A stretch of DNA of 51,268 nucleotides from an uncultured Victivallaceae bacterium (GTDB lineage: Bacteria; Verrucomicrobiota; Lentisphaeria; Victivallales; Victivallaceae), in assembly GCA_944389925.1 (NCBI GenBank), contig CALXOD010000022.1:1-51268 (forward strand), in the 5' to 3' direction. Below, piece by piece: positions 2,930 to 16,816 of the stretch. A model generated the notes under the pieces. That model saw only the letters and a program-made list of their open reading frames with translations. It was not told the DNA's origin and searched no databases. The stretch's first letter is position 1. The number at the start of each line of letters is the position of its first letter. The position numbers were made by a program, and so were the translations under genes.

Positions 2930-4339
2930 TTAGTCTATTCCTATCTCAAAAGGGCTTTTTTTCTTGGTAAAATTGTCCAATGGGCTATTGCTCTGTGTAG
3001 AATATTCAAAAGGGGATTCTGCTTGATTCGTGAACTCAAGAGATGATATTCTCTTTTGATTAATCTCCAAGAAGGACTCGAATCCGCTTTCATCAAAAAC
3101 ACTTGTGCGCTGTTGAATCTCAGTAGGAAGATAGCCGAGAATATCTTTCATTGAGATTGTAGGTCTTGCGAACTCTTTATAAATCCATTCAAAAGCAACC
3201 TCATAAACAAGCTCTGTTGTAATACCGGTCCCTATAACAATCCACCCAGTGGGAGTTGCTCCAAGCGCAACAAGAACATAGGTGGCAGTACCAGCAACAA
3301 TAGCTCCCCCACAATTTTTTGCACTTTCTTTGATAAATTCTTCTTCTGAAATTGAGCCCCGGGAAAATTTGTAAACTGTAATTCCCTCTGTAAAAACAAG
3401 TGTCATAACTCCTGCTGAAATGCTTGCTTTCGCGGGGGAGATTGGGATACTCAAGGTTCGAACGGTTTTTCCATTTATTTTGTGTTCTTGTAAAAGACCA
3501 CGAGTGAACTTTACTCCTGGTATCTTTGCAAAATCAGCAGCTTCTTTCGGGATTCTTTTCATACCGGGAATCTTCGCTATGGGTCTTGCTATTCTTTCTG
3601 CTCGGCGAGCATTTGCAAGAACTGCCCGATCAATAGAATATTTGGTTTTTAATGTATTACCCCAAGTGGCATAGAGCATGTCACCCATGCGTGTTGAGTA
3701 TAACTCAGTCATCAAAGATTCTGCAACTGCCTGTTGATTCTTTCCCCCACGCTTCAGCACCTTTATTAGTCGCTTTTTAAGAAAAGAGATATATTCGGGC
3801 TTATTTTTGAACAGAATCTCAGTATTCTTTTCGATGTTTCTGATAATTTGATCTTCGGGAAGCACTAGTTTGATTAAAGTATTATCTGGCTCAAGATCTC
3901 CCAGCAGGTGAATATCGTATAAGAGAGAAGCAAGAGCGTTTGCCTGTTTCGGAGGAAGCCCCGTAAGCCGAACGGCCTCGCCATTGATACGCTTGACAAA
4001 AGTTCTCCATAATTCTATGATTTCTTTTTCTTTCCCCGGATAATTTTTTGCAAGTAAATTTAGCGTTTCTTGCGGGATAGAGTCATTCAAAGTCCAGCCA
4101 TGTCCTAAAATACGATGGTTTCCCGGAATTTTCCCTAATTGCTGTCGAAAAGCTTCTGGAAGATCATGGTCAATACCAGAACTGATGGTATACGAGAGTT
4201 CCTTAAATGCGTCATCTCCATAGCCATTGAAAATACCAGTAAAGTCATCATAGTGCAACTTCGCACTTCCGTGTGCAAAACATACAATAGGAACGGAAGT
4301 GAGCAAAAACAGTAATAGGTTTTGTATTTTTTTTAGCAT
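2930..4339 (-). CDS. exported protein with a zinc-hydrolase-like His/Asp pattern, unknown function
   Basis: A 469-residue protein with a Sec signal peptide (cleavage near ...IVCFA|HGSAK). The N-terminal half has His at the start of the mature chain, HRILGHGW at about 77-84, and DIHLLGD at about 142-148. This spacing is reminiscent of the zinc sites of S1/P1 nucleases and zinc phospholipase C, but the match is weak and the full set of ligands is not seen. Residues of about 345-385 form a Gly/Ala-rich hydrophobic stretch (GGAIVAGTATYVLVALGA, then GWIVIGTGI) that could insert into a membrane. The C-terminus has three short repeats of the form SPFE/SPLD. It lies 2 bases downstream of the membrane protein at 4342 and abuts the lipoprotein at 1646. 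An exported enzyme or effector is possible; this is unproven. Confidence 0.65.
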   Translation of the reverse strand: MLKKIQNLLLFLLTSVPIVCFAHGSAKLHYDDFTGIFNGYGDDAFKELSYTISSGIDHDLPEAFRQQLGKIPGNHRILGHGWTLNDSIPQETLNLLAKNYPGKEKEIIELWRTFVKRINGEAVRLTGLPPKQANALASLLYDIHLLGDLEPDNTLIKLVLPEDQIIRNIEKNTEILFKNKPEYISFLKKRLIKVLKRGGKNQQAVAESLMTELYSTRMGDMLYATWGNTLKTKYSIDRAVLANARRAERIARPIAKIPGMKRIPKEAADFAKIPGVKFTRGLLQEHKINGKTVRTLSIPISPAKASISAGVMTLVFTEGITVYKFSRGSISEEEFIKESAKNCGGAIVAGTATYVLVALGATPTGWIVIGTGITTELVYEVAFEWIYKEFARPTISMKDILGYLPTEIQQRTSVFDESGFESFLEINQKRISSLEFTNQAESPFEYSTQSNSPLDNFTKKKSPFEIGID

Positions 4340-4341
4340 TT

Positions 4342-4929
4342 TTATTCCACAAAGAAGATGATTTGGTCATTTGTCATTTCATAGATCCGTTTTACGGGAG
4401 CCGGAATTTTCAATAGTTTTGTGGAAATATGTTTTTCTAATTCAACAACAATATTTTCCTGATTTAGCAGAAACTCTTTTTGCTGGGTATCGGAAAAATC
4501 AAAGAAATTTATTGTATCAATGGAAACATTTGTAACAGAAAGCCAACCATTATCCGGGATAACTGATAGTGCAACTCGAACTTCTGCGTCAGATTGTTGA
4601 ACTTCATTTCCTTTTTTATAGAAAGCTTTTCCCGCCAGAACAACGAAAATATCCTTCTCATGGGGAAATGCTTTTTTTACTGCAAATAGGTTTAACCCGA
4701 TCCCCTCCGTTGATTCTCCTGAGTTGATGAATCCCCATGTGATCGGAACAGAAAAAGACTGAAGTGCAACTTCTCTGAAGTTCACCTTTGTATAAAGTCT
4801 TGCGGCAGGAGGATATTCATTTTGCGTATTTTGCATTGTGCGAATAGCAACAGGTGCAATAGGAGCAATAGTTCCTAAGACCAACAATGTTGCGACAATC
4901 AACCAGATAATGAATCTTTTCTTTTTCAT
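4342..4929 (-). CDS. membrane-anchored protein, possibly YceB/DUF1439-like
   Basis: A 195-residue protein with one N-terminal membrane segment (residues 7-28) after three lysines. It is either an uncleaved anchor or a signal peptide. The remainder is a beta-rich extracytoplasmic domain. The C-terminal third, with a long helix followed by IPAPVKRIYEM, faintly recalls the YceB/DUF1439 lipoproteins, but I rate this as a guess. It is the first gene of the minus-strand block and is divergent from the kinase gene at 5396, with a 466-base spacer. Genes follow at 2 and 0 bases, so the three upstream proteins probably form one complex. Confidence 0.65.
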   Translation of the reverse strand: MKKKRFIIWLIVATLLVLGTIAPIAPVAIRTMQNTQNEYPPAARLYTKVNFREVALQSFSVPITWGFINSGESTEGIGLNLFAVKKAFPHEKDIFVVLAGKAFYKKGNEVQQSDAEVRVALSVIPDNGWLSVTNVSIDTINFFDFSDTQQKEFLLNQENIVVELEKHISTKLLKIPAPVKRIYEMTNDQIIFFVE

Positions 4930-5334
4930 ATCTGCATTTCTTTCTACATATGACTCCCGTAATTGTTGATTTTCTTTTCAACTACTTCTCAATCGAGGGA
5001 ATCTTACGTGAAGTCGGGAAAAAGTGCAGAAAAAAAAGCACGTTCTCTGTATTCGCTGCAACGAAGAGGCACTTGCAAGCCCGTCACCCGCAAACGAAAC
5101 ACCGAGAACGTGCCACAAGTACGTCAGTAGAACAAACGCACAGCGGCACGCTCTGATCCGGTCGTTTTTGCGGGTACTCAATAAAAAGTTTGCAAGTTTT
5201 CTTCGAGTTGCAATCCCACCGATCAAGCTGTCGATCTATAAGACAAGTCCATTTCTCCGGACTTACCCGTATTGAATGTACTGCCATAATTACAAAAATG
5301 CAAATTCAGCATATCGTCTTTCTTTAAACAGAAA
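4930..5334. other. divergent intergenic region, no gene seen
   Basis: The spacer between the exported-protein block (minus) and the kinase module (plus) must hold the promoters for both. Apart from the inverted repeat at 5038-5113 and the kinase promoter candidate just to its right, I see nothing coding: the short frames here lack ribosome binding sites and family features. Confidence 0.5.
5038..5113. repeat. 10-bp perfect inverted repeat, 56-base loop
   Basis: GCACGTTCTC at 5038-5047 pairs with GAGAACGTGC at 5104-5113. The region between is GC-richer than its flanks and could fold further. It lies midway between two divergent transcription units. It could be an operator pair, an RNA element in a leader, or a small RNA. 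No U-run follows on either strand, so it is not a simple terminator. Confidence 0.5.
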
Positions 5335-5363
5335 TTGATTTTCAATGCAAAGAGTGATATTTT
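5335..5363 (+). promoter_or_regulatory. candidate sigma-70 promoter of the kinase gene
   Basis: TTGATT at 5335-5340 and TATTTT at 5358-5363 are separated by 17 bases. They lie about 30 bases ahead of the TTG start at 5396, and an AAGGAG ribosome binding site stands at 5381-5386. Confidence 0.45.
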
Positions 5364-5395
5364 CTTCGTGAACATCGCAAAAGGAGTACAGAGAA

Positions 5396-7174
5396 TTGTT
5401 GAACACAGATGTACAGTTTCATAATTTGACCCTCGTCCGGCGTTGCGGCAGCGGCGCGTATGGCGAGGTCTGGCTATGCCGGGATATTACCGGTAAGATT
5501 CTGGCGTTGAAGCTGATTCAGAAGACGAAGCAGAATGCTGAACTCAAAAGTGTGGTGGCATTGCGTCTGACGCTGCCGGAGCACCCGAATGTGCTTTCCA
5601 TTCACCATGTAGCCATGGATGAAGATTTCCTCTGGTACACCATGGATGCCGCCGACAACCTTTCAACGGAAGATTCGTACATCCCCGACACCTTGGAGAA
5701 CCGTATCCGTCAGCACCGGCAACTGGACATCACCGTTATCATGCGTGAACTGATTGCCGGTCTTGCCGCGCTTCATGCCGTCGGTATGGTTCACCGCGAC
5801 ATCAAACCGGCCAATATTTTATTTATCCACGGCCGCGCCGTTCTCGGTGATGTCGGAATGGTCACTGCCGATACATCGAGCATGTCGCTGGCCGGAACGC
5901 TGGGATTTATTCCTCCGGAAGTTCGTGATGGTACGAGTTCACCCGGCACTGTCGGCAAGGCGGGCGACGTCTACGCTCTCGGCATGGTTCTGTATTGTAT
6001 GATTACCGGCAATGCACCGGAGGAATTTCCGGCTCTCCCGACGAACCTGCCGCACACTCCGCAAATTCGGCGGCTGAACCATCTGGCCTGCCGTGCGTGT
6101 GAGCGCAGTGCATCAACGCGGCTGACCAGTCTTGATGCCTTCTCCCGAGAGCTGGACAGCATCATTGCACGGGAGCAAACGCCGATAACTCTGCGTGAAC
6201 GGCTTGTTGCACATAAACGCACGACTGCAAAATTGTTATTGTGGATGACGGCGGCAATCGTGCTTATTGTCAGTGGAGTAATATTTGGGCCGCGTTTCAA
6301 GGGCACAACATCAGCACCGGCTGTTTCGGCAACAGTGGAACAGCCGTCCGTACCGTCAACACCGGTTCCTGCCGCAACCGGGAAAACAACACTGCCGGAA
6401 GCTGAATATGAGGTCGTTTTTGTTCCTGATTTTGCACAAGTACCGGAAACGGAAGAAGAACCGTCACTCCTGCCGCCACCGAAACCAGTCATAGTGAAAA
6501 AAGGGGAGAAGCCAAGGCCGGAAAAGATAGAGCGGCATTACGAAACATGGCGGTTACCGGCAGTAACGAAAAATATGAATCCGTTAACTGCCCGGATTCT
6601 GTCTCTGCGAAAATTGGCGTCTGAGTTGACCTGTACCCCGGAAGAGCGTAAGCGATTGGAGAAGCGTGAACGGCTGGATGCCTTCGAAAAATTCGACTCA
6701 GTTGCATCATTCTATTATATGGCCTTTGCTATGAATGATCTACTTCGCAAAAAGGAAGAGATGATTGGTGACAGTGGCATTCGATTTGAACCACAGCCAA
6801 GTCTTCGGAAAGTTGAGTCGGCGGCGTTGAAACGCCTGAAGGCTGATTTACTGGTGTTTGACGACTCCGATAAGCTGTTTCAGGATTATATCCTGATCGC
6901 CAAGCTGCCGCCGATGCCGAAACGCACGGAGGAGGAGTGGAAGAAATTCCTGTTGTCGCCGGAAGGATATGCATTGTATCCGCATTCATGGCTGCAGGTA
7001 AATATCTGCAATCGTGAAATTGAATGTCGTATCTGTGAAAATGCCAATGTCATGCAATGGGATTTCTTTCTGGAGCGCGAGCAGGAAACATACTGGCTTT
7101 CATTTGTCGCCAAGCAGGAGCGCTTTTTGGGTGAACGCGCAGAAACATTTAAAAAACTTGTCGTAGCCCTGTAA
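5396..7174 (+). CDS. membrane Ser/Thr protein kinase
   Basis: A 592-residue Hanks-type kinase. The N-terminal domain (about 8-265) has the glycine loop GSGAYGEVW, the ATP lysine in LALKLI (K39), the catalytic loop HRDIKPAN (about 131-138), a metal site that reads GDVGM rather than the usual DFG, and a P-P-E anchor. One membrane segment follows at about 279-297 (LLLWMTAAIVLIVSGVIFG). The outer part (300-592) starts with a Pro/Thr-rich linker, is otherwise helical, and is not recognised. The kinase should thus read an external or periplasmic cue and phosphorylate cytoplasmic targets. The TTG start is set by AAGGAG at 5381-5386, 9 bases ahead. A sigma factor and a zinc-finger protein follow in the same direction. 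The DVG in place of DFG keeps the Asp, so activity is likely. Confidence 0.9.
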   Translation: MLNTDVQFHNLTLVRRCGSGAYGEVWLCRDITGKILALKLIQKTKQNAELKSVVALRLTLPEHPNVLSIHHVAMDEDFLWYTMDAADNLSTEDSYIPDTLENRIRQHRQLDITVIMRELIAGLAALHAVGMVHRDIKPANILFIHGRAVLGDVGMVTADTSSMSLAGTLGFIPPEVRDGTSSPGTVGKAGDVYALGMVLYCMITGNAPEEFPALPTNLPHTPQIRRLNHLACRACERSASTRLTSLDAFSRELDSIIAREQTPITLRERLVAHKRTTAKLLLWMTAAIVLIVSGVIFGPRFKGTTSAPAVSATVEQPSVPSTPVPAATGKTTLPEAEYEVVFVPDFAQVPETEEEPSLLPPPKPVIVKKGEKPRPEKIERHYETWRLPAVTKNMNPLTARILSLRKLASELTCTPEERKRLEKRERLDAFEKFDSVASFYYMAFAMNDLLRKKEEMIGDSGIRFEPQPSLRKVESAALKRLKADLLVFDDSDKLFQDYILIAKLPPMPKRTEEEWKKFLLSPEGYALYPHSWLQVNICNREIECRICENANVMQWDFFLEREQETYWLSFVAKQERFLGERAETFKKLVVAL

Positions 7175-7219
7175 GAATCGTCCTTCTTTCCGGGAGTTGA
7201 TTACAAGGAATGGTTCAAC

Positions 7220-7834
7220 ATGGCATACACCACAAAAAAATCGCTGTTGCGGAAGGTTCGCGAAGGTGACGAAATCGGCTGGCATGAGTTTTATGAAACT
7301 TACAAGCCGCTGATTCTGCGGCGCGGAATGGACTTCAGTCTGCGGACGCAGGAACTCGCCGAACTGGTGCAGAAGGTTATGCTGGAATTTTTTCAGAAGG
7401 ATTTGTTTCACGGCAGGTACGATATCGATAGTGTTCCGGAAGAACTGACTTTTCGGTATGATGAAAAGAAGGGGCGTTTTCGCGATTTTCTGCGCCGGGT
7501 CGTGACGAATCATGCACTGAAGATTCTGCGCTCCCGCCGCAATCAGGCTCCGCTGGACGGTCTGGCACACGCAATACCTGATCCATCCCGCAATTGCGAC
7601 GAGCAATGGGAAAATGAGTGGCGCCAGCACCTGATGACACAGGCTTTGGCGGAACTGCGGGGCCAGGTCGCATCCGTTACTTATCAGGCATTTGAAATGT
7701 ACGCAATGAAACGGAAGAGTGTGACCGATACTGCGGAGTTCCTGAATCTCTCCGTTTCCAGCGTGTATACCGCCCGGAGCCGCTGCGTGGCGAAATTGAA
7801 AGCGATCATCGGAGAGTTGGAGGCGCGGCAATGA
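7220..7834 (+). CDS. ECF-like RNA polymerase sigma factor
   Basis: A 204-residue sigma-70 family protein of the ECF-like type common in Planctomycetota and their relatives. Region 2 covers about residues 10-100, with the core-binding and -10 helices around ELVQKVMLEFF and FRDFLRRVVTNHALKILR. Region 4 is a C-terminal HTH (about 157-190, TAEFLNLSVSSVYTARSR). A long acidic linker joins them. It directs RNA polymerase to a dedicated promoter set. It follows the kinase gene by 45 bases, and its stop overlaps the ATG of the next gene (ATGA), so the zinc-finger protein is probably its control partner. Kinase-linked ECF groups are known in which phosphorylation switches the sigma factor on; that is an inference here. 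Confidence 0.85.
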   Translation: MAYTTKKSLLRKVREGDEIGWHEFYETYKPLILRRGMDFSLRTQELAELVQKVMLEFFQKDLFHGRYDIDSVPEELTFRYDEKKGRFRDFLRRVVTNHALKILRSRRNQAPLDGLAHAIPDPSRNCDEQWENEWRQHLMTQALAELRGQVASVTYQAFEMYAMKRKSVTDTAEFLNLSVSSVYTARSRCVAKLKAIIGELEARQ

Positions 7835-8061
7835 AACACTATACCAGTGAGAAACTTGAGCTTTATCGTCACAGACAAATGGGCGTCCTCGGCCGCATCC
7901 AGTGTGCTTCCCATCTGAAAGAGTGTGCGGAATGCCGGGAGCGTCTTGCCGAGCTTCAGGCTGACGACCAACTTATAGCCGAACTCCGGGAAAGCGTCCG
8001 CATCTATAAGGAATTGTCCAATATGCCGCTGGGCCCGGATAAGCGTACTTTCACAGAATGA
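7831..8061 (+). CDS. short zinc-finger (ZAS/HC2-type) anti-sigma-like protein
   Basis: A 76-residue protein with H-x3-C-x2-C (HLKECAEC, about residues 28-35), the core of zinc-binding anti-sigma domains. His and Cys should bind zinc, and the domain would clamp the sigma factor encoded just upstream. Unlike most anti-sigma factors, it has no membrane segment and ends soon after the domain, so any signal must come from elsewhere, plausibly from the kinase at 5396. The ATGA overlap with the sigma gene supports equimolar synthesis. A very short HC2 protein could instead be a zinc-binding regulator that does not bind sigma. Confidence 0.7.
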   Translation: MKHYTSEKLELYRHRQMGVLGRIQCASHLKECAECRERLAELQADDQLIAELRESVRIYKELSNMPLGPDKRTFTE

Positions 8062-8077
8062 AGTCCGGCTACTTTCT

Positions 8078-8095
8078 GCCGGATAATATTCCGGC
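8078..8095. terminator. weak hairpin between convergent genes
   Basis: GCCGGA at 8078-8083 pairs with TCCGGC at 8090-8095 around a 6-base loop, between the anti-sigma gene and the convergent nuclease gene. A direct repeat CCGGCTACT (8065-8073 and 8091-8099) overlaps it. There is no good U-run, so terminator function is uncertain. Confidence 0.3.
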
Positions 8096-9264
8096 TACTC
8101 GTTTTCTGCCCCGCGATTGAGGATTTTTTCCACACCGTCGATCAACGGAATCAGCGACTGATAGGGCTGCGGTATTTCAGAATTGAGGTGATAGACGGCC
8201 ACGCCCATCGGTTTGTTGAAGTCCCTTACCGCAAGTTCAACGATACCGCGCCGCGCCTTCTGGCAAAGAAGAAGTCCGATGCTCCTGTTCTCATCCGGGT
8301 GACGCACCTTGTCGTCCAATGCGGAAAGATAGAAATTCAACTGGCCCAGATATGCCGGTTTGAACTCCCCGCGCTTGAGTTCCACCGCGACCAGAGAGCG
8401 CAAGGCCCGGTGATAGAAAAGCAGGTCCACGAAAAACTCCCGGTCTTCGACGATGATGCGGTACTGATTGCCGACAAAGCAGAAGTCCGCACCGAGAGAC
8501 TGAATAAAACGTTTGATTTCCCCGACCAGTGCGGTTTCCAGTACCCGTTCGTCCACATCTGCGTCATCGCTTGCATCTTCGATGTTGATGTAGTCCAAAA
8601 GGTACTCGTCTTTGAATGCGCGGACAGCCCGGGCCGCCTGTTTTTCATCCGGCATCGTCAATGCAAAATTGTTCGGCAATGTTCCGAGCCGGTGATAGTC
8701 GTCCGCCTGAAGGTGGGCTTTCAACGTTTCCACACTCCAGAACCGGGAAGCGCACTGGAGGATATAATACCAGCGTTCTTCCGGTTCCTTGCAGGCGGCA
8801 AGGATGTACCGGTGGTGCGTAAAGCCGACAGCCAAAAATGCCTGAATCTCGTTAGCGGACAATTCATCGCCTGCCGGAAGAGGGAAGCCGGAAAACTTCA
8901 GAACCGGAAAATCATCACCTGTCGAGTGATGATCCGAGGAAAGCAATTCATCACTTGCCGAGTGATGAATTTCATTGCCGTCTGCCGCCCAGGATTCATA
9001 AAACAATCTCATATAGCGGATACTGGTCGCAGAGAATCCCCTCAGGCCGGGGAGTTCGGCCTGAAGCTGTCTGGAAATGGCTTCAATGGCGCCGCTCCCC
9101 CATTTCCCATGCCGGGTGTTGGCTGAAACATAACCACCAATGCTGAAATAGAGCTTCAGTTGTTCCGCATTGGCCAGCCGTGCCGCAAGATAACGGCTTT
9201 TCAGGATAGCGGTCTTGATTGATTTGACTGCATCTATATAGAAGTTCTGTTTGTCGTTGGTCAT
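8095..9264 (-). CDS. YhcG/DUF1016 family PD-(D/E)xK nuclease
   Basis: A 389-residue protein of the YhcG family. The N-terminal DUF1016 domain covers about residues 8-180 and includes GKWGSGAIEAISRQLQ and the FSATSIRYMRLFYESW segment. The C-terminal nuclease-like domain has the Asp of FVDLLFYH, then VAVELKRGEF (E-x-K, about 290-297) and GQLNFYLSALDD, the PD-(D/E)xK pattern. Members are linked to restriction systems, toxins and mobile elements and probably cut nucleic acids. Residues of about 95-120 carry two HHS-x-(S/T)-x-(D/E) repeats, encoded by two palindromes. It ends in TAG, the only TAG stop among the genes of this window. It is a cargo gene of the element, transcribed towards the kinase module. 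Confidence 0.85.
   Translation of the reverse strand: MTNDKQNFYIDAVKSIKTAILKSRYLAARLANAEQLKLYFSIGGYVSANTRHGKWGSGAIEAISRQLQAELPGLRGFSATSIRYMRLFYESWAADGNEIHHSASDELLSSDHHSTGDDFPVLKFSGFPLPAGDELSANEIQAFLAVGFTHHRYILAACKEPEERWYYILQCASRFWSVETLKAHLQADDYHRLGTLPNNFALTMPDEKQAARAVRAFKDEYLLDYINIEDASDDADVDERVLETALVGEIKRFIQSLGADFCFVGNQYRIIVEDREFFVDLLFYHRALRSLVAVELKRGEFKPAYLGQLNFYLSALDDKVRHPDENRSIGLLLCQKARRGIVELAVRDFNKPMGVAVYHLNSEIPQPYQSLIPLIDGVEKILNRGAENE
8911..8970. repeat. two near-identical palindromes inside the nuclease gene
   Basis: ATCATCAC/GTGATGAT (8911-8918 and 8926-8933) and ATTCATCAC/GTGATGAAT (8946-8954 and 8962-8970) have 7-base loops of similar sequence and lie one after the other, about 36 bases apart. 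They encode the HHS repeats of the nuclease, so they are both protein repeat and possible DNA/RNA hairpins. Confidence 0.7.
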
Positions 9265-9670
9265 AATGTTGCCTCGCCGGCTTGTAAAGTTAATGTTCCA
9301 TTTCTTCCGGTCCGGTCTTCACACCCGGCTTTCAGGTTCATGGCTGCAGGCAGTTTCATCCATAGCGGGAAAATATCGGGAGATGCCCGGCTCCCCATAC
9401 AGCAAGCCACCCGTGGGGAGCTTATTACATTTGCCTCAGTTGCCTTCAATATACCGGAATGAATATAATCCGATATCGAGGCTTTTCAAGAAACAATCGA
9501 TTGCCTTCCTGTGAAGATCAATGAAAAAGGCGGATTTTCAGGAAGCTGCACCGAATGACTTTAAGAAAAGGCAAGTATTCCTTCGTCAATGCCGTACCTG
9601 AAAATCCGTTGCTGTCATCTACCTGCCCGGATATCATTTCTTACAGAGGACACCGGGAAACTACGGCAAA
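9265..9670. other. 406-base intergenic region, no gene seen
   Basis: No reading frame here has a start, ribosome binding site and recognisable product. It contains a perfect 8-base inverted repeat, GCTCCCCA at 9390-9397 with TGGGGAGC at 9414-9421. This lies upstream of the nuclease gene (minus) and downstream of the helicase gene (minus), so it could be a helicase terminator or a nuclease operator. No U-run is seen. Confidence 0.4.
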
Positions 9671-11104
9671 TCATTCCGAATGCGTCAACAGTTGTTTCAG
9701 GGAAACATTCTCCTCGTGGCAGGACTTTTCCAGTTGTTGATAAAAGTTTACGACATTTGTATCGACTAGGGTGTCTTCCTTGTACACTTTCCGTTCCAGC
9801 CGCAAGCCTTCAAGGCTTCGGCAGCGCGACAACGCCGTATATAACTGACCGCTGGCGAAACATCCGTTTCCCAGAAAGAGACGTGCACGGTCGAAGCCCA
9901 TGCCCTGACTTTTATGAATCGTCACCGCCCAGGCAAGGCGGAGAGGAATCTGGATGAAGAAACCTGTCTCAATCTGTTTGATCAGTCCACGCCCGCTATT
10001 GCGGTCCCATTCCTGTTCATAGCGGTATACCGACCACTTTGCCGGCTCAATCACGGAAACGCGGTTGTCGTCAAATTGTACGATGACATTCCCGAGTCCG
10101 TTTTGATTGCAGGTAATTCCGGCGATAACGCCGAGATCGCCGTTGATGTATTCATAGGTACCATCAGGATTGCGTTTATTGACCAGCGTCATTACCCGTG
10201 CTCCGGGTTGCAGCACCAGATTGACCGCTGTCGGATAGTCCTTTTCCGGAAACTTTCCGACAATCTGTGCTTTGAATATCTCCTCCCTGGAATCCAGCTG
10301 AGAAGAGCAACGGCGATTGACTTCTTCTGCTTCACGACGGGTAGTGCAAAGACAGATGGGCTGTGCCGTTCCTACTTCGTCCTGCGGATGTCCTGCACAG
10401 AGTTTGTTGAGTACAGCTATGCTGTTGAGCCGGATACGCGATCCGGGCAGTACGATGTTGCGCTGTGTAACATCGCCGTGCCGGATATTGTTTAAAATTT
10501 GCATAAAGAGTCGGTCGTTACCCTGCCGGTGTACCTGTTTCAGTACCAACGGATGAAACTCTGTTTCCTCCCAGAGGCGGGTTTGAAATGGATACTTCCC
10601 GCCTAAATAGTTTTGAAGGTACAACTCCTCCGTATCAGTGGAAATAACCGGCGGCAACTGAAAGAAGTCGCCGCATACAATGACCTGTTTCCCGGCAAAT
10701 GGACGAAAGCGGTTAATGCCGGTTGCCGCTTCCCGCAAACGGTGATCAATTGCCGAGAACACATCAGAACGCACCATGGATATTTCGTCGATGACGATCG
10801 TCCGTACCGTGCTGAGTAACTGGCGCTGACGCGAGCTGCCGAGCTCTCCAAGTGTGTCCGGAGTCTGAAGACCCGGCTTCAGATGGCAGAAGCTGTGTAT
10901 TGTCTGCCCTTTGATATTCGATGCGGCAAGCCCGGTAGGTGCAAGAAAAACCGTACGTTCCGTGTCGCACTTTTCCCGGAAAGCACGCAGGAGAGTCGAT
11001 TTCCCTGTTCCCGCTTCACCGGTCAGGAAAACATTCTCGCCGGCCAGCATCAGTTCCAGAGCGAAATGTTGTTCCGGATTCAGAAAACCATATTCCATGT
11101 TCAT
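9671..11104 (-). CDS. Pif1/RecD-like DNA helicase
   Basis: A 477-residue superfamily 1 helicase. Walker A is GEAGTGKST (about 29-37), motif Ia follows at FLAPTGLAASNIKG, and Walker B is VIDEISMV (about 105-112). Motif III is VCGDFFQLPPV, and the C-terminal motifs are VTIHKSQGMGFDRARL and GQLYTALSRCRS (motif VI). This is the Pif1 group: an ATP-driven 5'-3' helicase that unwinds DNA forks and G-quadruplexes. The length is full for small bacterial forms. It lies downstream of the primase on the same strand, and the two probably form the replication module of the element. The start at 11104 is one of two close Met codons (MNMEYG). A rounded-out alternative is conjugative-type DNA processing, but no relaxase is visible. 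Confidence 0.88.
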   Translation of the reverse strand: MNMEYGFLNPEQHFALELMLAGENVFLTGEAGTGKSTLLRAFREKCDTERTVFLAPTGLAASNIKGQTIHSFCHLKPGLQTPDTLGELGSSRQRQLLSTVRTIVIDEISMVRSDVFSAIDHRLREAATGINRFRPFAGKQVIVCGDFFQLPPVISTDTEELYLQNYLGGKYPFQTRLWEETEFHPLVLKQVHRQGNDRLFMQILNNIRHGDVTQRNIVLPGSRIRLNSIAVLNKLCAGHPQDEVGTAQPICLCTTRREAEEVNRRCSSQLDSREEIFKAQIVGKFPEKDYPTAVNLVLQPGARVMTLVNKRNPDGTYEYINGDLGVIAGITCNQNGLGNVIVQFDDNRVSVIEPAKWSVYRYEQEWDRNSGRGLIKQIETGFFIQIPLRLAWAVTIHKSQGMGFDRARLFLGNGCFASGQLYTALSRCRSLEGLRLERKVYKEDTLVDTNVVNFYQQLEKSCHEENVSLKQLLTHSE

Positions 11105-11111
11105 CCTCGTA

Positions 11112-11246
11112 TGGGGACGGTGGTGACACCCGACAGTTTCTTCTTCAGAAAACCTAAATGGTAAGTCACCATGCCAGTCCCCTTTTTTCTTGTTGTTTAT
11201 TTAGGTTTCCTCTTACTGGATAACGGCAGTGTTCCCACCGTCCCCA
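11112..11246. repeat. nested inverted repeats between primase and helicase genes
   Basis: There are three concentric arms: TGGGGACGGTGG (11112-11123) with CCACCGTCCCCA (11235-11246); AAACCTAAAT (11150-11159) with ATTTAGGTTT (11199-11208); and ATGGT (11158-11162) with ACCAT (11168-11172). The outer right arm lies in the last codons of the primase gene, and the rest is non-coding. It could be the replication origin of the element, a primase/helicase binding site, or an attenuator controlling the helicase gene. Confidence 0.6.
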
Positions 11247-13687
11247 CCACCAATATTACAAGCGCAGTACCGGATGCCGAACCAGACTTGGAGATCCCGG
11301 GGGGATCGTATCCGTCCAATCCTGACTTCGGGGAAGCGTGCCTGTACTGCAGCATTGAACCGGTTCTGCCCCACCGGGCGATAACCGTGTTCTTCCATCC
11401 AGAGTCTGTAATTCCTATAAATGGACTGTCTTTCGAGTACTCCTGCCGGATCTTCCTGAAGGGTTTCGCTTAAAAATTCCGCTTCATGGTCACAATTCAA
11501 ACGGTGCTGCTTTTGCAGTTCTCTTGCTGCTTCCGGAATTGGGAAACGAGTATGTTGAGAAAGCTGGCGCATTCCAGTTATGGCCCAGTTGAAAATCCCC
11601 GGTAATTCTTGTTCCAACTGGTACTTCAAGCCCGGCTTTTCATCTCCTGTATTACGAAAGCGGCGGGTGAATTGCAGAACAACCAGCCGGTCCCACAAAC
11701 CATCCGTGCGATCCAAGAAAGTCGGCAATTCATTGGCGAGAAATACACAGCGTGCTTTGGCCCGCGCATCTGTCGGCGCTTGGAATTTACGTTCGGCAGG
11801 GATGACTGCTCCATCCGTAACCATTTTAAAGATCTTTTCACTGTCTGCAAGGTTTTTCTGCTCTCCATTGACAGGCAGTTCCTCAACCAGATTGAGGGTA
11901 TGTTCTGTCAGAAGCCAGGAAGAAAAACGGTTGCCGAGGTCCCCGAAGGGAAGGCAGCAGGTATTACTTTCTCCTACCAGCTTGCGAAGAATATGTGCTG
12001 CAACCGATTTGCCATCTCCGCCGCGTCCGATCCAGAAGAAACCGATATTGAAACACTGCTTCCGAGAGAGGATATAGCCAAAGCACATTTGCAGGGCAGT
12101 CCTCATCTCCGGGGTGTCGAAGGTAGTTTCCAGATAGTTGTTCCATTCCGGACACTCTGCTTCCGGTAGAAAATCGTAGTCCACATCACGCCGACTGAAA
12201 AATCTGGGAGTATGCGGCAACAACTCTGCCGGAGTGTCAGGAAACAACCAAAGAGGCGAGAGTTTTGCAAGCCCGTTTCTGAAACTCATGAAGTCTTCCG
12301 CTGATTCGCCATCCGGTAGAAAACATGGCATGTTATACTTATGCCGCGGCAAACCGCATAACTCATCGGCACGAAGGTTGGCGATTATATCATTGATTAC
12401 ATTGTTGCCGATACGCATTTGTTCTTCCATTTTCTGGCGTTGTAAAAAGCCTGTTACCATCATTTCCAGATCCTGTACCGGAAGTTCCTTCCAGGCACAA
12501 TCAGAATAGTGCCACCACGTTCCCCGCCAACACCGCAAAGTATACTGTTCTGCAAGGCTGTTTTCAGCAGCGAACTGTCGTGCCAATTGAGTTATCGGCA
12601 TGGGAGGACGTCCGCCGAGCATACCATTGACAGGCGATGTCAACGCTCGGCGATCCGGTTTTTTCTTCATATCTGCCGGTAATTGGCGTTCAAAGTCGTC
12701 CCAAGAACGGGGGCCGAATTCTTCCGCAACCAGATATTGCATGTCATCCCCCCGAAAAATGCCGGGGACACGAGTCAAACGGCTCGGGTTGCGATTGGCG
12801 CAATCATACGGAAACTTTTTCCGGGTCAGATAGCAATACAGCAACTCTACCCGTTTCCTATAAAGTTTCCGATCTTGTCCCGCATCAATTTTGACGATTA
12901 CATGTAAACTTTTTCCACCGGACCAGACTACCGCTTTTACCGGCAAATTAAGTTTTCTGATGCGTGACCATTGTTCTTCCTTGGATAAATCATCCGCTTC
13001 CACAAGCGTATACCGCAAGTTCGTAACGTCGGAATCTTTGGGCGCCTTACCGGTGATCTGCTGCTGCAGCGGATTCAGAGATATCCATGCACCCTGTTCC
13101 GTTTGGCTGATGATTTCCAGCAAACTGTTGAATGTGGAGTCCCGTTGGCTGTCATCGAAACGTTTCTTCACCGCTTGAGCAGAACGTAAGGGGCGGTATT
13201 TGCCTTCCTGACAGATCGACTGTATTACGAGTTCAAAGTATTCCCCGGGCATAAACATTTTTTCCATAAAGGTTATGGCCTGGGTTGCCATTGCCTCTTT
13301 GCCTTGCGGTACTGGCAACATTTCTGCCGGGGACGCCGGCTGTGACTTCGGAAACTGTCCGGTCAGCATCTTCAACGTGCCGATTCCAACTCGTTCCTTT
13401 CCTTCTGCTGCAGCCCGATTCCAGGTCTTCTGAGCGACTTCCGCATCATATCTCTCCGGTGTGGTTGCGGACCATTCATCGAAGACGGAGAAGTTTACTC
13501 CGCATCCTTTCAGTGCAGCAGCTACCCGAAACCACTCGGTATATGGCAAGTCAGCCGATATCTGCTGCAGCAGCATTTCAGCGTCCTGCCTTTCCTGATG
13601 CGATTTGACGCTATTGTTATTACAGAGTGTTCTCTGGTCCCTGGTCAACTGCAACTTGGCGGGGACCCCTATTTTTTTATTATTCAT
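11213..13687 (-). CDS. primase-helicase, P4/D5 type
   Basis: An 824-residue replication protein. Residues of about 35-93 match a PriCT-2-type helical domain (YTEWFRVAAALKGCGV...). Residues of about 220-335 match an archaeo-eukaryotic-type primase region, with VEADDL, SGGKSLHVIVKIDA and NRNPSRLTRVPG. A D5/P4-like superfamily 3 helicase follows, with Walker A GRGGDGKS at about 550-557 and an LVEELP Walker B. The product should prime and unwind DNA at an origin. It fits the plasmid/phage-satellite style of autonomous replication and explains how an integrated element can multiply after excision. The gene for an HTH protein ends only 10 bases upstream, and a helicase lies downstream. Confidence 0.85.
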   Translation of the reverse strand: MNNKKIGVPAKLQLTRDQRTLCNNNSVKSHQERQDAEMLLQQISADLPYTEWFRVAAALKGCGVNFSVFDEWSATTPERYDAEVAQKTWNRAAAEGKERVGIGTLKMLTGQFPKSQPASPAEMLPVPQGKEAMATQAITFMEKMFMPGEYFELVIQSICQEGKYRPLRSAQAVKKRFDDSQRDSTFNSLLEIISQTEQGAWISLNPLQQQITGKAPKDSDVTNLRYTLVEADDLSKEEQWSRIRKLNLPVKAVVWSGGKSLHVIVKIDAGQDRKLYRKRVELLYCYLTRKKFPYDCANRNPSRLTRVPGIFRGDDMQYLVAEEFGPRSWDDFERQLPADMKKKPDRRALTSPVNGMLGGRPPMPITQLARQFAAENSLAEQYTLRCWRGTWWHYSDCAWKELPVQDLEMMVTGFLQRQKMEEQMRIGNNVINDIIANLRADELCGLPRHKYNMPCFLPDGESAEDFMSFRNGLAKLSPLWLFPDTPAELLPHTPRFFSRRDVDYDFLPEAECPEWNNYLETTFDTPEMRTALQMCFGYILSRKQCFNIGFFWIGRGGDGKSVAAHILRKLVGESNTCCLPFGDLGNRFSSWLLTEHTLNLVEELPVNGEQKNLADSEKIFKMVTDGAVIPAERKFQAPTDARAKARCVFLANELPTFLDRTDGLWDRLVVLQFTRRFRNTGDEKPGLKYQLEQELPGIFNWAITGMRQLSQHTRFPIPEAARELQKQHRLNCDHEAEFLSETLQEDPAGVLERQSIYRNYRLWMEEHGYRPVGQNRFNAAVQARFPEVRIGRIRSPRDLQVWFGIRYCACNIGGGDGGNTAVIQ

Positions 13688-13697
13688 AGATAACCTC

Positions 13698-14003
13698 TCA
13701 TTTCTGATTATTTAACAATGTGTCCACGCTTTCCGGACTGATGCGGACTGCGTGTGATGATAATTGAACCCGTTGCAGCTTTCCCTGATTGAGATAGCGG
13801 TTCACCGTATTCAAACTGATTCGAAGCAGTTTGGCTACTTCCTGACGAGTCAGCGGTTGCTGTTTTACTGCCTCCTTCGGCTCAGCCGGATTATGGTTTT
13901 TGAGCGCCTCGATCAAATTGTGCGGCGAAAGCTCGGGAATATACGGTTGCAGGATTGCGACAGCCGCAGACAAAACTGCCGGAGTTGGTGTTTTGACCTT
14001 CAT
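13698..14003 (-). CDS. small HTH protein, excisionase/repressor-like
   Basis: A 101-residue protein whose C-terminal half is a MerR/excisionase-type winged HTH (LTRQEVAKLLRISLNTVNRY, about residues 51-70, then a wing around LSSHAVRISPESVDTLL). The N-terminal 45 residues are a helical extension of unknown role. It lies between the integrase unit and the primase, 10 bases upstream of the latter, the usual place for a directionality factor (Xis) or copy-control regulator. The palindromes at 14097-14184, just upstream of its start, are possible binding sites. Confidence 0.7.
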   Translation of the reverse strand: MKVKTPTPAVLSAAVAILQPYIPELSPHNLIEALKNHNPAEPKEAVKQQPLTRQEVAKLLRISLNTVNRYLNQGKLQRVQLSSHAVRISPESVDTLLNNQK

Positions 14004-14088
14004 GTTTTTTCCTTTTTGTGATTGGTGATACTTTTTGTTGTTTCATGAAACTGATACTAATTATACCCGCACTCCTGCAATTCTCTGC

Positions 14089-14131
14089 AAAAAAAAGAGG
14101 TTGAATGTACTTCTGCAGTACAATCAACCTC
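14089..14131 (-). terminator. rho-independent terminator of the integrase unit
   Basis: A 15-bp stem with one mismatch (14097-14111 with 14117-14131, loop of 5) is followed on the minus strand by eight T (14089-14096). It sits just past the stop of the 336-residue gene and separates it from the HTH-primase unit. Confidence 0.8.
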
Positions 14132-14158
14132 AGAAAAAAATTGTATTTTTTTTTAGAA

Positions 14159-14184
14159 AACTGCAATTTTACTTTTTTGCAGTT
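14159..14184. repeat. AACTGCAA/TTGCAGTT inverted repeat
   Basis: AACTGCAA (14159-14166) and TTGCAGTT (14177-14184) are separated by 10 bases in a T/A-rich spacer between the integrase unit and the HTH gene. The motif CTGCAA also recurs at 14075-14090. It is a possible operator for the HTH protein. Confidence 0.4.
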
Positions 14185-14205
14185 CTCTATCTGGTTTCTA
14201 GGGAG

Positions 14206-15216
14206 TCATTGTCTTATTTTCAAATTTTTCTTGGCAGTCCCTATGCACTCCAACTCTCCTAGCCATCCTCCTAGAGAGAGAGTATTATTGAAAGCTGCCA
14301 ATATTTTACAAATATCCTGAAGACGCCAATAGCTTGTTTTTCCATTAACCTCAATTGAGTGAGCTTTGTCGTCTTTCAGCTTTTTTCGCAATTTATCTTC
14401 GAGTGATCGGGGGGAGAGTTTCCGATTTAGCAGTCTCCTCTTGATAACGTTGTCGGCAATTTCCGGTAATTTGGCATAAAGGTCTTCAGCATCCTCTGCT
14501 TGAAATCTGATACTAGAACTTATGCTTTTCACCTCTGATCTGATGTCGTTGAGTGTTTCTTTCCTTTCCTGCTGCAAAATATCAATCGTATTTTGAAGTT
14601 CAGGGATTTTATCTTTATATTTTTCCAGTTCCTTGATTGTCCTGTCGGTACTTAATGCTTTCGTCATTCCTATGATGGAAAAGATCGCAGCAAACTGCGA
14701 CTCTATAGCTTTGGTATAATTATTTGAAAATACGCTGATATTACTTATGAAAATATTTTTGTCAACAAATTTTTCTGCTTTTATCATGTCCAGATAAATC
14801 GCATCGAACCAATATTCTGCACACAATAAAGCAAAGTCGCACTCTTGGCAGGTATGGATAAATGATCTGATATCGGAGGTATAATTACTTTCGGAAGCAA
14901 CTTTTTGTAAATTTGTGTAATTTGCAGCAGTTATCAGTTTTAAAATGTGATATGAATTACTATTGGGGTAGCAAAGAGCACTCAATAGTTGTTTGGCGTA
15001 TTCTCCGGATTGTCCAGAAAAATCTTTCCCTTCTGCTAAATAATCAAACAGGTTACGGTAACAACTAGTACTTAATTTAAGCAAAATATAATTGAACATT
15101 GCCAATTCATCATTGGCTAACTCCTTCTGGCAAAATTTGCCGAGCTGTTTATACCCACCAGTAAGGAGTCCTTTGGATTGCATTTGTTCCCGAGCCATTT
15201 CATTTATGACTGTCAT
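14206..15216 (-). CDS. integrase-coupled protein, unknown function
   Basis: A 336-residue protein that I do not recognise. The N-terminal 200 residues are predicted helical with several Cys and aromatic residues. Residues of about 200-240 form a likely coiled coil (KELEKYKDKIPELQNTIDIL). The C-terminal part is basic and ends with a small domain around VNGKTSYWRLQDICKILA that could bind DNA. The start codon overlaps the integrase stop by 4 bases (ATGA), so the two are translationally coupled. A strong terminator follows. This arrangement suggests a role in recombination, excision or element maintenance. The gene is markedly AT-richer than its neighbours. Confidence 0.7.
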   Translation of the reverse strand: MTVINEMAREQMQSKGLLTGGYKQLGKFCQKELANDELAMFNYILLKLSTSCYRNLFDYLAEGKDFSGQSGEYAKQLLSALCYPNSNSYHILKLITAANYTNLQKVASESNYTSDIRSFIHTCQECDFALLCAEYWFDAIYLDMIKAEKFVDKNIFISNISVFSNNYTKAIESQFAAIFSIIGMTKALSTDRTIKELEKYKDKIPELQNTIDILQQERKETLNDIRSEVKSISSSIRFQAEDAEDLYAKLPEIADNVIKRRLLNRKLSPRSLEDKLRKKLKDDKAHSIEVNGKTSYWRLQDICKILAAFNNTLSLGGWLGELECIGTAKKNLKIRQ

Positions 15217-16631
15217 AACAACTCTCCCATTTTGATAAATCCGATTAGCTTGCGAATCTGCTCAAGCGGCAGCTTATCCACCAACCGGTGCAATATTTCC
15301 CGTTCTGACTGGAATTCGTCCTCGTTATTGCAGGCAGGCAATTGTAAGACTTCTGCATAGCGAACGGCGGCAGTATCACTGATCTTCGTATAATGTTCAG
15401 TCATTGCAGGATTCGCATGTCCTGCATTCTTCTGGATAATTGCGGCGGGCGTTCCGGCTTCGGCATTGTGGCTTATATAAGAATAACGAAGGGAATGAAA
15501 CCCCATTTCAACCACTGCGCGCGTACCTGTCGTTTTCGTTTTTCCTGTCGCCTTGTCAATCATGGGTTTTCCCGTTTCGGGATCTAGAACCATTCGGCGA
15601 CCGGTCCCGGGACGATGTATTTCTATGTTGCACTTTTTAAAATGCTTCAGAATCTTCTTGGTGATTTGCTGATCGCCGCCTGATAGATATTTTTCTGCAA
15701 AATCAGGCAAGAGATAATTCTGACGTTCATTTTCCGGTATCGCTGTCAGCATTTCGAATAGAGCCGGCGGAATGCCGATTTTAACGACAGCTTGTGAACG
15801 ATCCTTGATGGTATGTTCTGTTTTTCGCGGAATGCGTTCGATGATTTTTCTCGATAAATCAATTTCGTGCCACAGTAGAGTGCAGCAATCTCCCAGACGC
15901 AGGCCGGTAAAATATCCTAAAGCGATCAGGATACGCATATCACCGGTGGCTGAATTGATCAGTGTTGTTATTTGCTCCAGAGCCAGAGGCTTTTTACTGT
16001 TGTAACGGTGCTCCTGACGATCAATATCCTGAAACGGATTTGTGCTGTTTATTTTCTGAGCCCCTGCCAACGTATTGAAAAAGCAATTAAAAAATTGCAG
16101 ATACTTGTTGTATGTGCCAGAAGCGTTTTCACGTCTGACTGCATCCATGAATTTATCTGCAACTTCCGGCGTTATATCGCCGAGTAACGATATCTCTTTA
16201 TGATTTGCCTTGAGCCACTCAGCGAAGCGCCGGTAATAACTTCGATAGTTGGCGGCCGTGGTATGAGGAGGAATGTCCGCCGATGAATAGCGTTTGCAAC
16301 TGGCCGGACGTTTCGGGCAGCTCATGAAGAGTTCCCAACCTGCCATAATGGTTGCTTTACTGTTGACCAGCTCAATCTTAGCTTGATTCGCCGCTTCTTC
16401 TGCATCGGAGAGAGAATTTTTCAGAATACGCAGTTGTTCGGCTCTGTCGCTTTCATTCAAGGGACGCAAAATTCTTGCTGCTGCCTTTTTGGCTTCCGGT
16501 TCACGGGTAATGGGCTTACCATTGAGGTCAAGCAACCGAACGCGAAAATCCTTGCCATTTGCCGTATAACGAAAATAATAATACCCTTTTTTGCCGCTGG
16601 TATAGAGCTTGCCAGTTGTATGCCGAGCCAT
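15213..16631 (-). CDS. tyrosine recombinase (integrase)
   Basis: A 472-residue phage-type integrase. There is an N-terminal arm-binding region (about 1-60), a core-binding SAM-like domain (about 110-200) and a catalytic domain (about 215-440). Visible active-site residues are Arg in FTGLRLGDC, HSLRYS (H-x-x-R), GHANPAMTEHY (His and the nucleophile Tyr) and the intervening Lys strand. It should catalyse site-specific recombination between the element and a tRNA gene. The start lies about 120 bases from a tRNA-Tyr 3' fragment, the standard integrase/att geometry, which fixes this end of the element. The middle insert (about 330-375) is longer than in lambda Int but usual for this group. Confidence 0.92.
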   Translation of the reverse strand: MARHTTGKLYTSGKKGYYYFRYTANGKDFRVRLLDLNGKPITREPEAKKAAARILRPLNESDRAEQLRILKNSLSDAEEAANQAKIELVNSKATIMAGWELFMSCPKRPASCKRYSSADIPPHTTAANYRSYYRRFAEWLKANHKEISLLGDITPEVADKFMDAVRRENASGTYNKYLQFFNCFFNTLAGAQKINSTNPFQDIDRQEHRYNSKKPLALEQITTLINSATGDMRILIALGYFTGLRLGDCCTLLWHEIDLSRKIIERIPRKTEHTIKDRSQAVVKIGIPPALFEMLTAIPENERQNYLLPDFAEKYLSGGDQQITKKILKHFKKCNIEIHRPGTGRRMVLDPETGKPMIDKATGKTKTTGTRAVVEMGFHSLRYSYISHNAEAGTPAAIIQKNAGHANPAMTEHYTKISDTAAVRYAEVLQLPACNNEDEFQSEREILHRLVDKLPLEQIRKLIGFIKMGELL

Positions 16632-16748: not shown

Positions 16749-16805
16749 CAGACTGTAAATCTGCTGTCACCGACTTCGATGGTTCGAATCCATCTCCCAC
16801 CACCA
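16749..16805 (+). other. tRNA-Tyr 3' fragment, attachment site of the element
   Basis: The segment holds the anticodon arm CAGACTGTAAATCTG (anticodon GTA), the long variable arm, the T-arm GGTTCGAATCC and the 3' acceptor strand ending in ACCA, close to the bacterial tRNA-Tyr consensus. The 5' half (acceptor 5' strand and D-arm) is absent upstream, so this is not a functional tRNA. Its position beside the integrase identifies it as the duplicated 3' end left at one edge of an integrated element. The complete tRNA-Tyr should lie beyond the left edge of the window. Confidence 0.85.
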
Positions 16806-16816
16806 TTTTTGAGCTC

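Follow-up and report, generated by a model that had tools for sequence, protein, structure and literature searches.

A putative replication origin made of two facing iteron half-sites behind the P4-family primase-helicase gene of an integrated element in a Victivallaceae bacterium

The inverted repeats at positions 11112–11246 of the 51,268-nucleotide stretch of DNA analysed here (the window), from an uncultured Victivallaceae bacterium, are, judging by sequence comparison, highly likely to be the replication origin of a small integrated mobile element, serving the element's own primase-helicase. They very probably represent a known kind of origin, the P4 crr/PICI type, found here in a little-studied bacterial group and with an unusually regular layout; the composite half-site of fixed register from which the site is built may be new.

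The sequence-only reading had described three concentric inverted repeats (12, 10 and 5 bp) spanning the end of the primase gene and the 108-base gap before the helicase gene. The coordinates confirm this position, and two of the repeats, a perfect 12-bp pair (11112–11123 and 11235–11246) and a perfect 10-bp pair (11150–11159 and 11199–11208), do share a common centre at 11179.0. The 5-bp pairs, of which there are four, are centred at 11144, 11165, 11188.5 and 11196.5 and are therefore nested rather than concentric; pairs this short are unremarkable. When extended, the outer pair matches over 16 of 18 bp, and the site is the sole inverted repeat of at least 16/18 with a span below 200 in the window. 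The inverted repeat exceeds chance, as three such repeats arose in 20 windows of a Markov-1 simulation (0.15 per window).

The outer arms consist of 7-bp words at a 9-bp spacing (TGGGGAC-GG-TGGTGAC and TGGGGAC-GG-TGGGAAC), and the inner arms contain AACCTAA and TTAGGTT, each of which occurs once in the window, inside the site. The "nested palindromes" are thus two facing copies of one half-site of ~46 bp. Half-site A (11112..11157, plus strand) comprises the iterons TGGGGAC (11112–11118) and TGGTGAC (11121–11127) and the core AACCTAA (11151–11157). Half-site B (11201..11246, minus strand) is inverted about the same centre, 11179.0, overlaps the 3' codons of the primase gene, and comprises TGGGGAC (11246–11240), TGGGAAC (11237–11231) and AACCTAA (11207–11201). 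In both half-sites, AACCTA lies at offset 39 from the start of the outer iteron. The 43-bp spacer between them (11158..11200), the probable unwinding region, also holds, on the minus strand, two words that resemble the iterons: TGGTGAC (11171–11165) and GGGGAC (11182–11177). Positions 11130–11228 are 60% A+T, versus 33% in the 18-bp arms, and A+T content between the inverted iteron pairs is 59% versus 48% in the flanks, a modest excess. Iteron sets in opposite orientation around an A+T-richer region are a feature of P4 crr/PICI-type origins. A scan of the window recovered this inverted iteron site only, and GC skew, proposed earlier as a check, shows no clear switch at the site.

The genes of the element all lie on the minus strand: a tyrosine integrase (15213..16631), an orphan protein (14206–15216), an HTH_17 excisionase-like protein (13698..14003), the primase-helicase (11213..13687, 824 aa), a PIF1/Dda-like helicase (9671..11104), which is the next gene after the site, and a DUF1016/YhcG protein (8095–9264). 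The right outer arm falls within the last codons of the primase gene. Participation of a coding 3' end in an arm had been called unusual; it is indeed uncommon, but not unique, since at loci L025 and L129 the primase 3' end contains iterons too. The eight element-region proteins scanned, a subset of the ORFs, include an integrase, an HTH protein and a primase, and no packaging or phage-interference genes were recognised among them. Beside the integrase gene, 61 nt (16749..16809, plus strand) repeat the 3' portion of a tRNA-Tyr gene, with 98% identity to contig G000:C56, where that gene is intact; this copy is probably an attachment-site remnant. Two further features of this genome may be recorded. 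Upstream of the HTH_17 gene, at 14097–14131, GAGGTTGA...TCAACCTC forms a short, imperfect palindrome, possibly an operator, and a second, distant DUF5906 primase reaches a contig end (G000:C20:57577–58104).

Positions 4969–14209 of the window are 98.6% identical to positions 3101–12345 of locus L024 in genome G067, which belongs to another genus. The common segment carries the kinase, sigma-like, YhcG, helicase, primase and HTH genes and the site, and in G067 the orphan gene and the integrase do not adjoin it, suggesting a recent transfer with exchange or loss of the integration module. The identity of the site in the two genomes is not significant evidence for the site itself, because the whole neighbourhood has few differences.

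The proposed initiator is the primase-helicase itself (11213..13687), which would bind the site. It belongs to the P4 primase family, as its TIGR01613 match (146.5 bits) exceeds the cut-off of 108.7, and its domains comprise PriCT_2, DUF5906, a weak D5_N and a C-terminal RFX-like winged helix. A profile of the helicase part, built from the window protein and seven relatives, matches the SaPI5 primase-helicase (7ola) with an E-value of 3.7e-24, making the latter, by profile, the closest solved relative. When the C-terminus is included, the profile matches RFX5 and hRFX1. The C-terminus is also the only confident part of the predicted model, with RFX domains as its best fold matches, while elsewhere the model is of low quality (mean pLDDT 54). 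By profile and model, then, the C-terminus looks like an RFX winged helix, giving the predicted protein a C-terminal domain of DNA-binding type, as in initiators of P4 crr/PICI-type origins. As a single-sequence query, the primase found no relatives in the genome contigs or the viral contigs.

The sequence-only reading held that the absence of conserved arms in relatives would count against it, and in this respect the outcome is mixed. The next nearest primases after that of G067, in G045 and G019 (52–65% identical over the parts available), are separated from the helicase gene by 6–7 nt with no such site in the sequence available, on contigs that end near these genes. On the other hand, the half-site layout is kept in six other places with distinct primases: G358 and G393 (where it is displaced), G002/G003:C405, G390:C55, G060, and G003:C167 (one half-site only). 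Primases just 35–42% identical in the helicase part do have the site, with TGTGCAG iterons in L028, L027 and L078/L205, and with TGTCCAG in a single half-site in L025. It also accompanies a partial primase in G060, found by a protein-alignment search. In G358 and G393, whose primase is 50% identical, the iterons are TGGGGA[CG] and the core is GGAAACCTAA; the site lies after the helicase gene, with an inverted copy 5–6 kb off. This second copy (L202, 17048–17169; L203, about 4100–4212) stands at the edge of the segment common to both genomes, and in L203 one of its arms is without its second iteron.

What is constant among these sites is the geometry. Wherever an iteron pair was matched, in 19 of 19 half-sites and across three different iteron sequences, the distance from the start of the outer iteron to AACCTA is 38 or 39 bp; with the G067 copy and the near-duplicates L027 and L203 counted among them, these half-sites represent about six independent elements. 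Iteron patterns were set by hand for each locus, at sites already known to have the core, and 19 of the 24 sides were matched. The five unmatched are the left side of L203 copy a (which lost one iteron), the left side of L206 in G060 (where the pattern was too narrow), the right side of L025, and both sides of L026 (for which no pattern was tried). The left half-site of L206 has an offset of 38 as well, adding a twentieth case, and two of the 19 have a further AACCTA at 43. In the seven sites computed, the outer pair and the core pair are centred no more than 0.5 bp apart, with corresponding iterons paired. The distance between facing boxes ranges from 6 to 45 bp in the sites measured.

The core motif itself has a narrow distribution. 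AACCTAA is present in 10 of the 19 related places and absent from nine in the stretches examined; eight of these nine also lack an inverted 9-bp pair, and the ninth (L071/G390:C169) has iterons. L026 has the core pair with no iterons visible. Across the phylum, AACCTAA occurs in 8/79 primase 3' regions versus 3/300 control windows, and in three of the eight (L069, L120 and L122) it lies outside an iteron layout like that of the window. It was found in none of the viral primase 3' regions among the matches listed, and these comparisons restrict AACCTAA to the clade of primases to which that of the window belongs.

These distributions bear on three alternatives. A MITE-like small repeat inserted at the end of the primase gene would account for the terminal inverted repeats, for the absence of the site and its 3' codons at this place in G045 and G019, and for the two copies in G358 and G393, but it would be expected in multiple dispersed copies. 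Among the matches listed, the home genome holds one full copy, the other 11 being no longer than 23 bp (lowest E-value 0.06), and the site occurs in two of 78 family genomes, both times within the shared element, the near-identical G067 copy being the only one besides the window's. In addition, the layout recurs with different iterons behind distant primases at the same place. We therefore rejected such an insertion, on copy number and recurrence, as extremely unlikely. Similarly, the second inverted copy at the segment edge in G358 and G393 might point to a recombination or partition site of the element (att, resolution or centromere-like), but the attachment-like tRNA-Tyr fragment lies elsewhere (16749–16809) and the proteins scanned included none recognised as a partition protein, which leaves this reading scarcely probable. 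The third alternative is a transcriptional operator. Regulators often bind palindromic sites, and the one in the window extends across the 108-bp gap in front of the helicase gene; on this reading, that gene would be controlled by the primase or the HTH_17 protein bound to the palindrome. This is nonetheless very unlikely: a scan with the sigma-70 consensus found no sigma-70-like site in the gap, a DNA polymerase gene rather than the helicase gene follows the site in L026 and L028, and the G358 and G393 sites lie after the helicase gene and 5–6 kb away. An origin could have an operator role as well.

The layout also recurs well beyond the close relatives, as seen in a survey of P4/D5-type primase 3' ends. 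Each region, from 60 nt before the stop codon to 300 nt after it, was scored for two 7-mers at a period p plus their inverted pair, with a cut-off of 34/42. The phylum set comprised 80 DUF5906 regions and five more, out of 94 places listed with nine left out; six regions had no downstream sequence, and 79 were usable. The viral set, of contigs found by protein, provided 44 usable loci of the 45 listed and was not used to form the idea. At period 9, the cut-off was reached by 15/79 primase 3' regions versus 2/295 control stretches in the phylum set, and by 15/44 versus 3/305 controls in the viral set (among the matches listed). When relatedness was allowed for by taking one region per 50%-identity cluster, 13/69 passed versus 3/371 controls (Fisher p 5e-9). 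About a fifth of clusters therefore show the layout, and 56 of the 69 fail the strict 9-bp test. This test may be conservative, since the P4 crr scores just 31/42 and would miss the cut-off. Nine is the main but not the only iteron spacing, because periods 8, 10 and 11 also give hits: 4/79 versus 1/295 at period 8 in the phylum set, where other periods are near background; 7/44 and 5/44 versus 1/305 each at periods 10 and 11 in the viral set (matches listed); and 4, 3 and 6 of 69 clusters versus 1, 7 and 3 of 371 controls at periods 8, 10 and 11, respectively. Scans of whole contigs gave near-cut-off hits elsewhere in L024 (3841) and L203 (18657 and 8800), and three A+T-rich hits in L023 at periods 10 and 11. 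In 25 of 30 sites, the core is A+T-richer than the flanks. Origin-like sites of other primase clades (L139/L140, L069, L074 and L111) have symmetric blocks of their own inside the iterons, e.g., CTATTCT or stretches resembling CCCTACCTTTT, a hint that a core particular to each clade, placed at a fixed offset, may be a general feature.

The wider set of sites also allows the role of base pairing to be weighed. The structure had been thought to be selected, and selection looks to be on the iterons as duplex DNA, together with the core motif, and not on a hairpin. If pairing itself were under selection, as argued for pRN1, which needs an intact ~100-nt stem-loop (PMC4234260), the site would be a terminator, an attenuator or a cruciform, formed in RNA or DNA. 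This would fit its folding as RNA (z −3.9) and as DNA (z −4.3), but such folding is expected of any inverted repeat. Across 30 de-duplicated sites, the 2-nt linkers between iterons, which were not used in selection, are complementary in just 35/60 cases, versus 93% of iteron positions, a figure that is high by construction; the linker value (58%) is above the 20–50% of the flanks. This drop in arm complementarity at the linkers suggests binding words in duplex DNA and not a hairpin. In the window, the two arms have unlike second iterons with no compensating change, and the 30 sites do not show the pRN1-type pattern of conserved stem pairing with free sequence. A terminator or riboregulator hairpin was rejected, as the gap contains no terminator-like site and Rfam gives no match overlapping it with an E-value of 1 or less. 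We consider any hairpin reading very unlikely.

A replication-protein binding site and origin, as first suggested, is thus the reading best supported by these comparisons: inverted iteron pairs recur at P4/D5-type primase 3' ends in two data sets, and the annotated P4 crr and the PICI origins, as described, share its place and layout. We infer that the site would act in cis as an origin once the element has excised. The upstream gene encodes the P4-family primase-helicase, whose C-terminal winged helix would contact the iterons at their 9-bp spacing; an oligomer would form on each of the facing half-sites, the two being placed head to head. The core with AACCTAA/TTAGGTT, which is richer in A+T, would then be melted, and the primase-helicase would prime and unwind in both directions, perhaps assisted by the PIF1-type helicase. 

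Between close kin, iterons resemble each other to the degree that the winged helices do (Mantel 21/2000); distant pairs show no such correlation. We give roughly even chances to a two-part code: swappable iterons would be read by the winged helix, which changes fast, and an invariant AACCTA box 38–39 bp away would be read or melted by a conserved part of the primase-helicase. In such a code each ~46-bp half-site, opposed to its partner at a distance that varies, may load one helicase hexamer. The constant spacing from changing iterons to a fixed core would be a testable geometric constraint on DNA opening by a self-loading primase-helicase. The survey suggests such a layout 3' of the primase gene in roughly one cluster in five (phylum and viral contigs), so the origins of many unstudied elements may be predictable, and the 9-bp dyad rule could predict those of many phages and islands with P4-family primases from sequence.

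In the literature, no fixed-distance core motif or 9-bp dyad rule for such origins was found among the titles and abstract openings listed; this is weak evidence of novelty, because figures and most subscription papers lay outside the search. The system of PMC7145576 has a RepA_N initiator and was set aside as no counterpart. One parallel is the putative origin of SCCmec, where the Cch2 helicase is reported to attach through its C-terminal domain to direct repeats that closely follow its own gene (PMC7581432); the window shares the repeats downstream of the proposed initiator's own gene and the C-terminal domain. The Cch2 iterons, however, are 5 nt long, deletion of the inverted repeats left binding unaffected, and the primase is a separate polymerase pair, unlike the window protein (PMC7581432). 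For pRN1, an intact stem-loop 3' of its primase-helicase gene is reported as a requirement (PMC4234260). The window site resembles it, as described there, in its size (~100 bp), in its inverted arms around a loop and in its location 3' of a gene for a primase, SF3 helicase and winged helix; it differs in that the iteron words, and not the pairing, look conserved, whereas stem integrity is reported to matter in pRN1.

Counterparts of the site's own proposed type are P4 crr and the PICI origins, which lie immediately 3' of a P4/D5-family primase-helicase gene, the location seen in the window. P4 alpha binds the crr iterons. In the P4 record (X51522), crr follows directly after the 3' end of alpha; two type I iterons spaced 9 bp apart (4314 and 4323) have inverted counterparts at 4366 and 4384. 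The window site is alike in lying directly 3' of the gene for a P4-family primase-helicase and in its 9-bp iterons with inverted counterparts. By contrast, the P4 crr is composed of two 120-bp direct repeats with the iteron TGTTCACC, while the window has one inverted iteron site, and P4 has a separate ori about 4.5 kb from crr. For PICIs, the account by Fillol-Salom et al. (2018; PMC6092414) places the origin immediately 3' of the initiator gene, describes an A+T-rich region always flanked by two sets of iterons, and reports that a cloned rep-ori replicon needs both rep and ori. Compared with PICI origins as described there, the window differs in its AACCTAA core at a fixed 38–39 bp and in having one arm inside a coding end. 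It agrees with the described PICI/SaPI origins in its place 3' of a primase-helicase gene and in the iteron sets around an A+T-rich region, and the closest solved relative of its predicted initiator is itself a SaPI protein, the SaPI5 primase-helicase.
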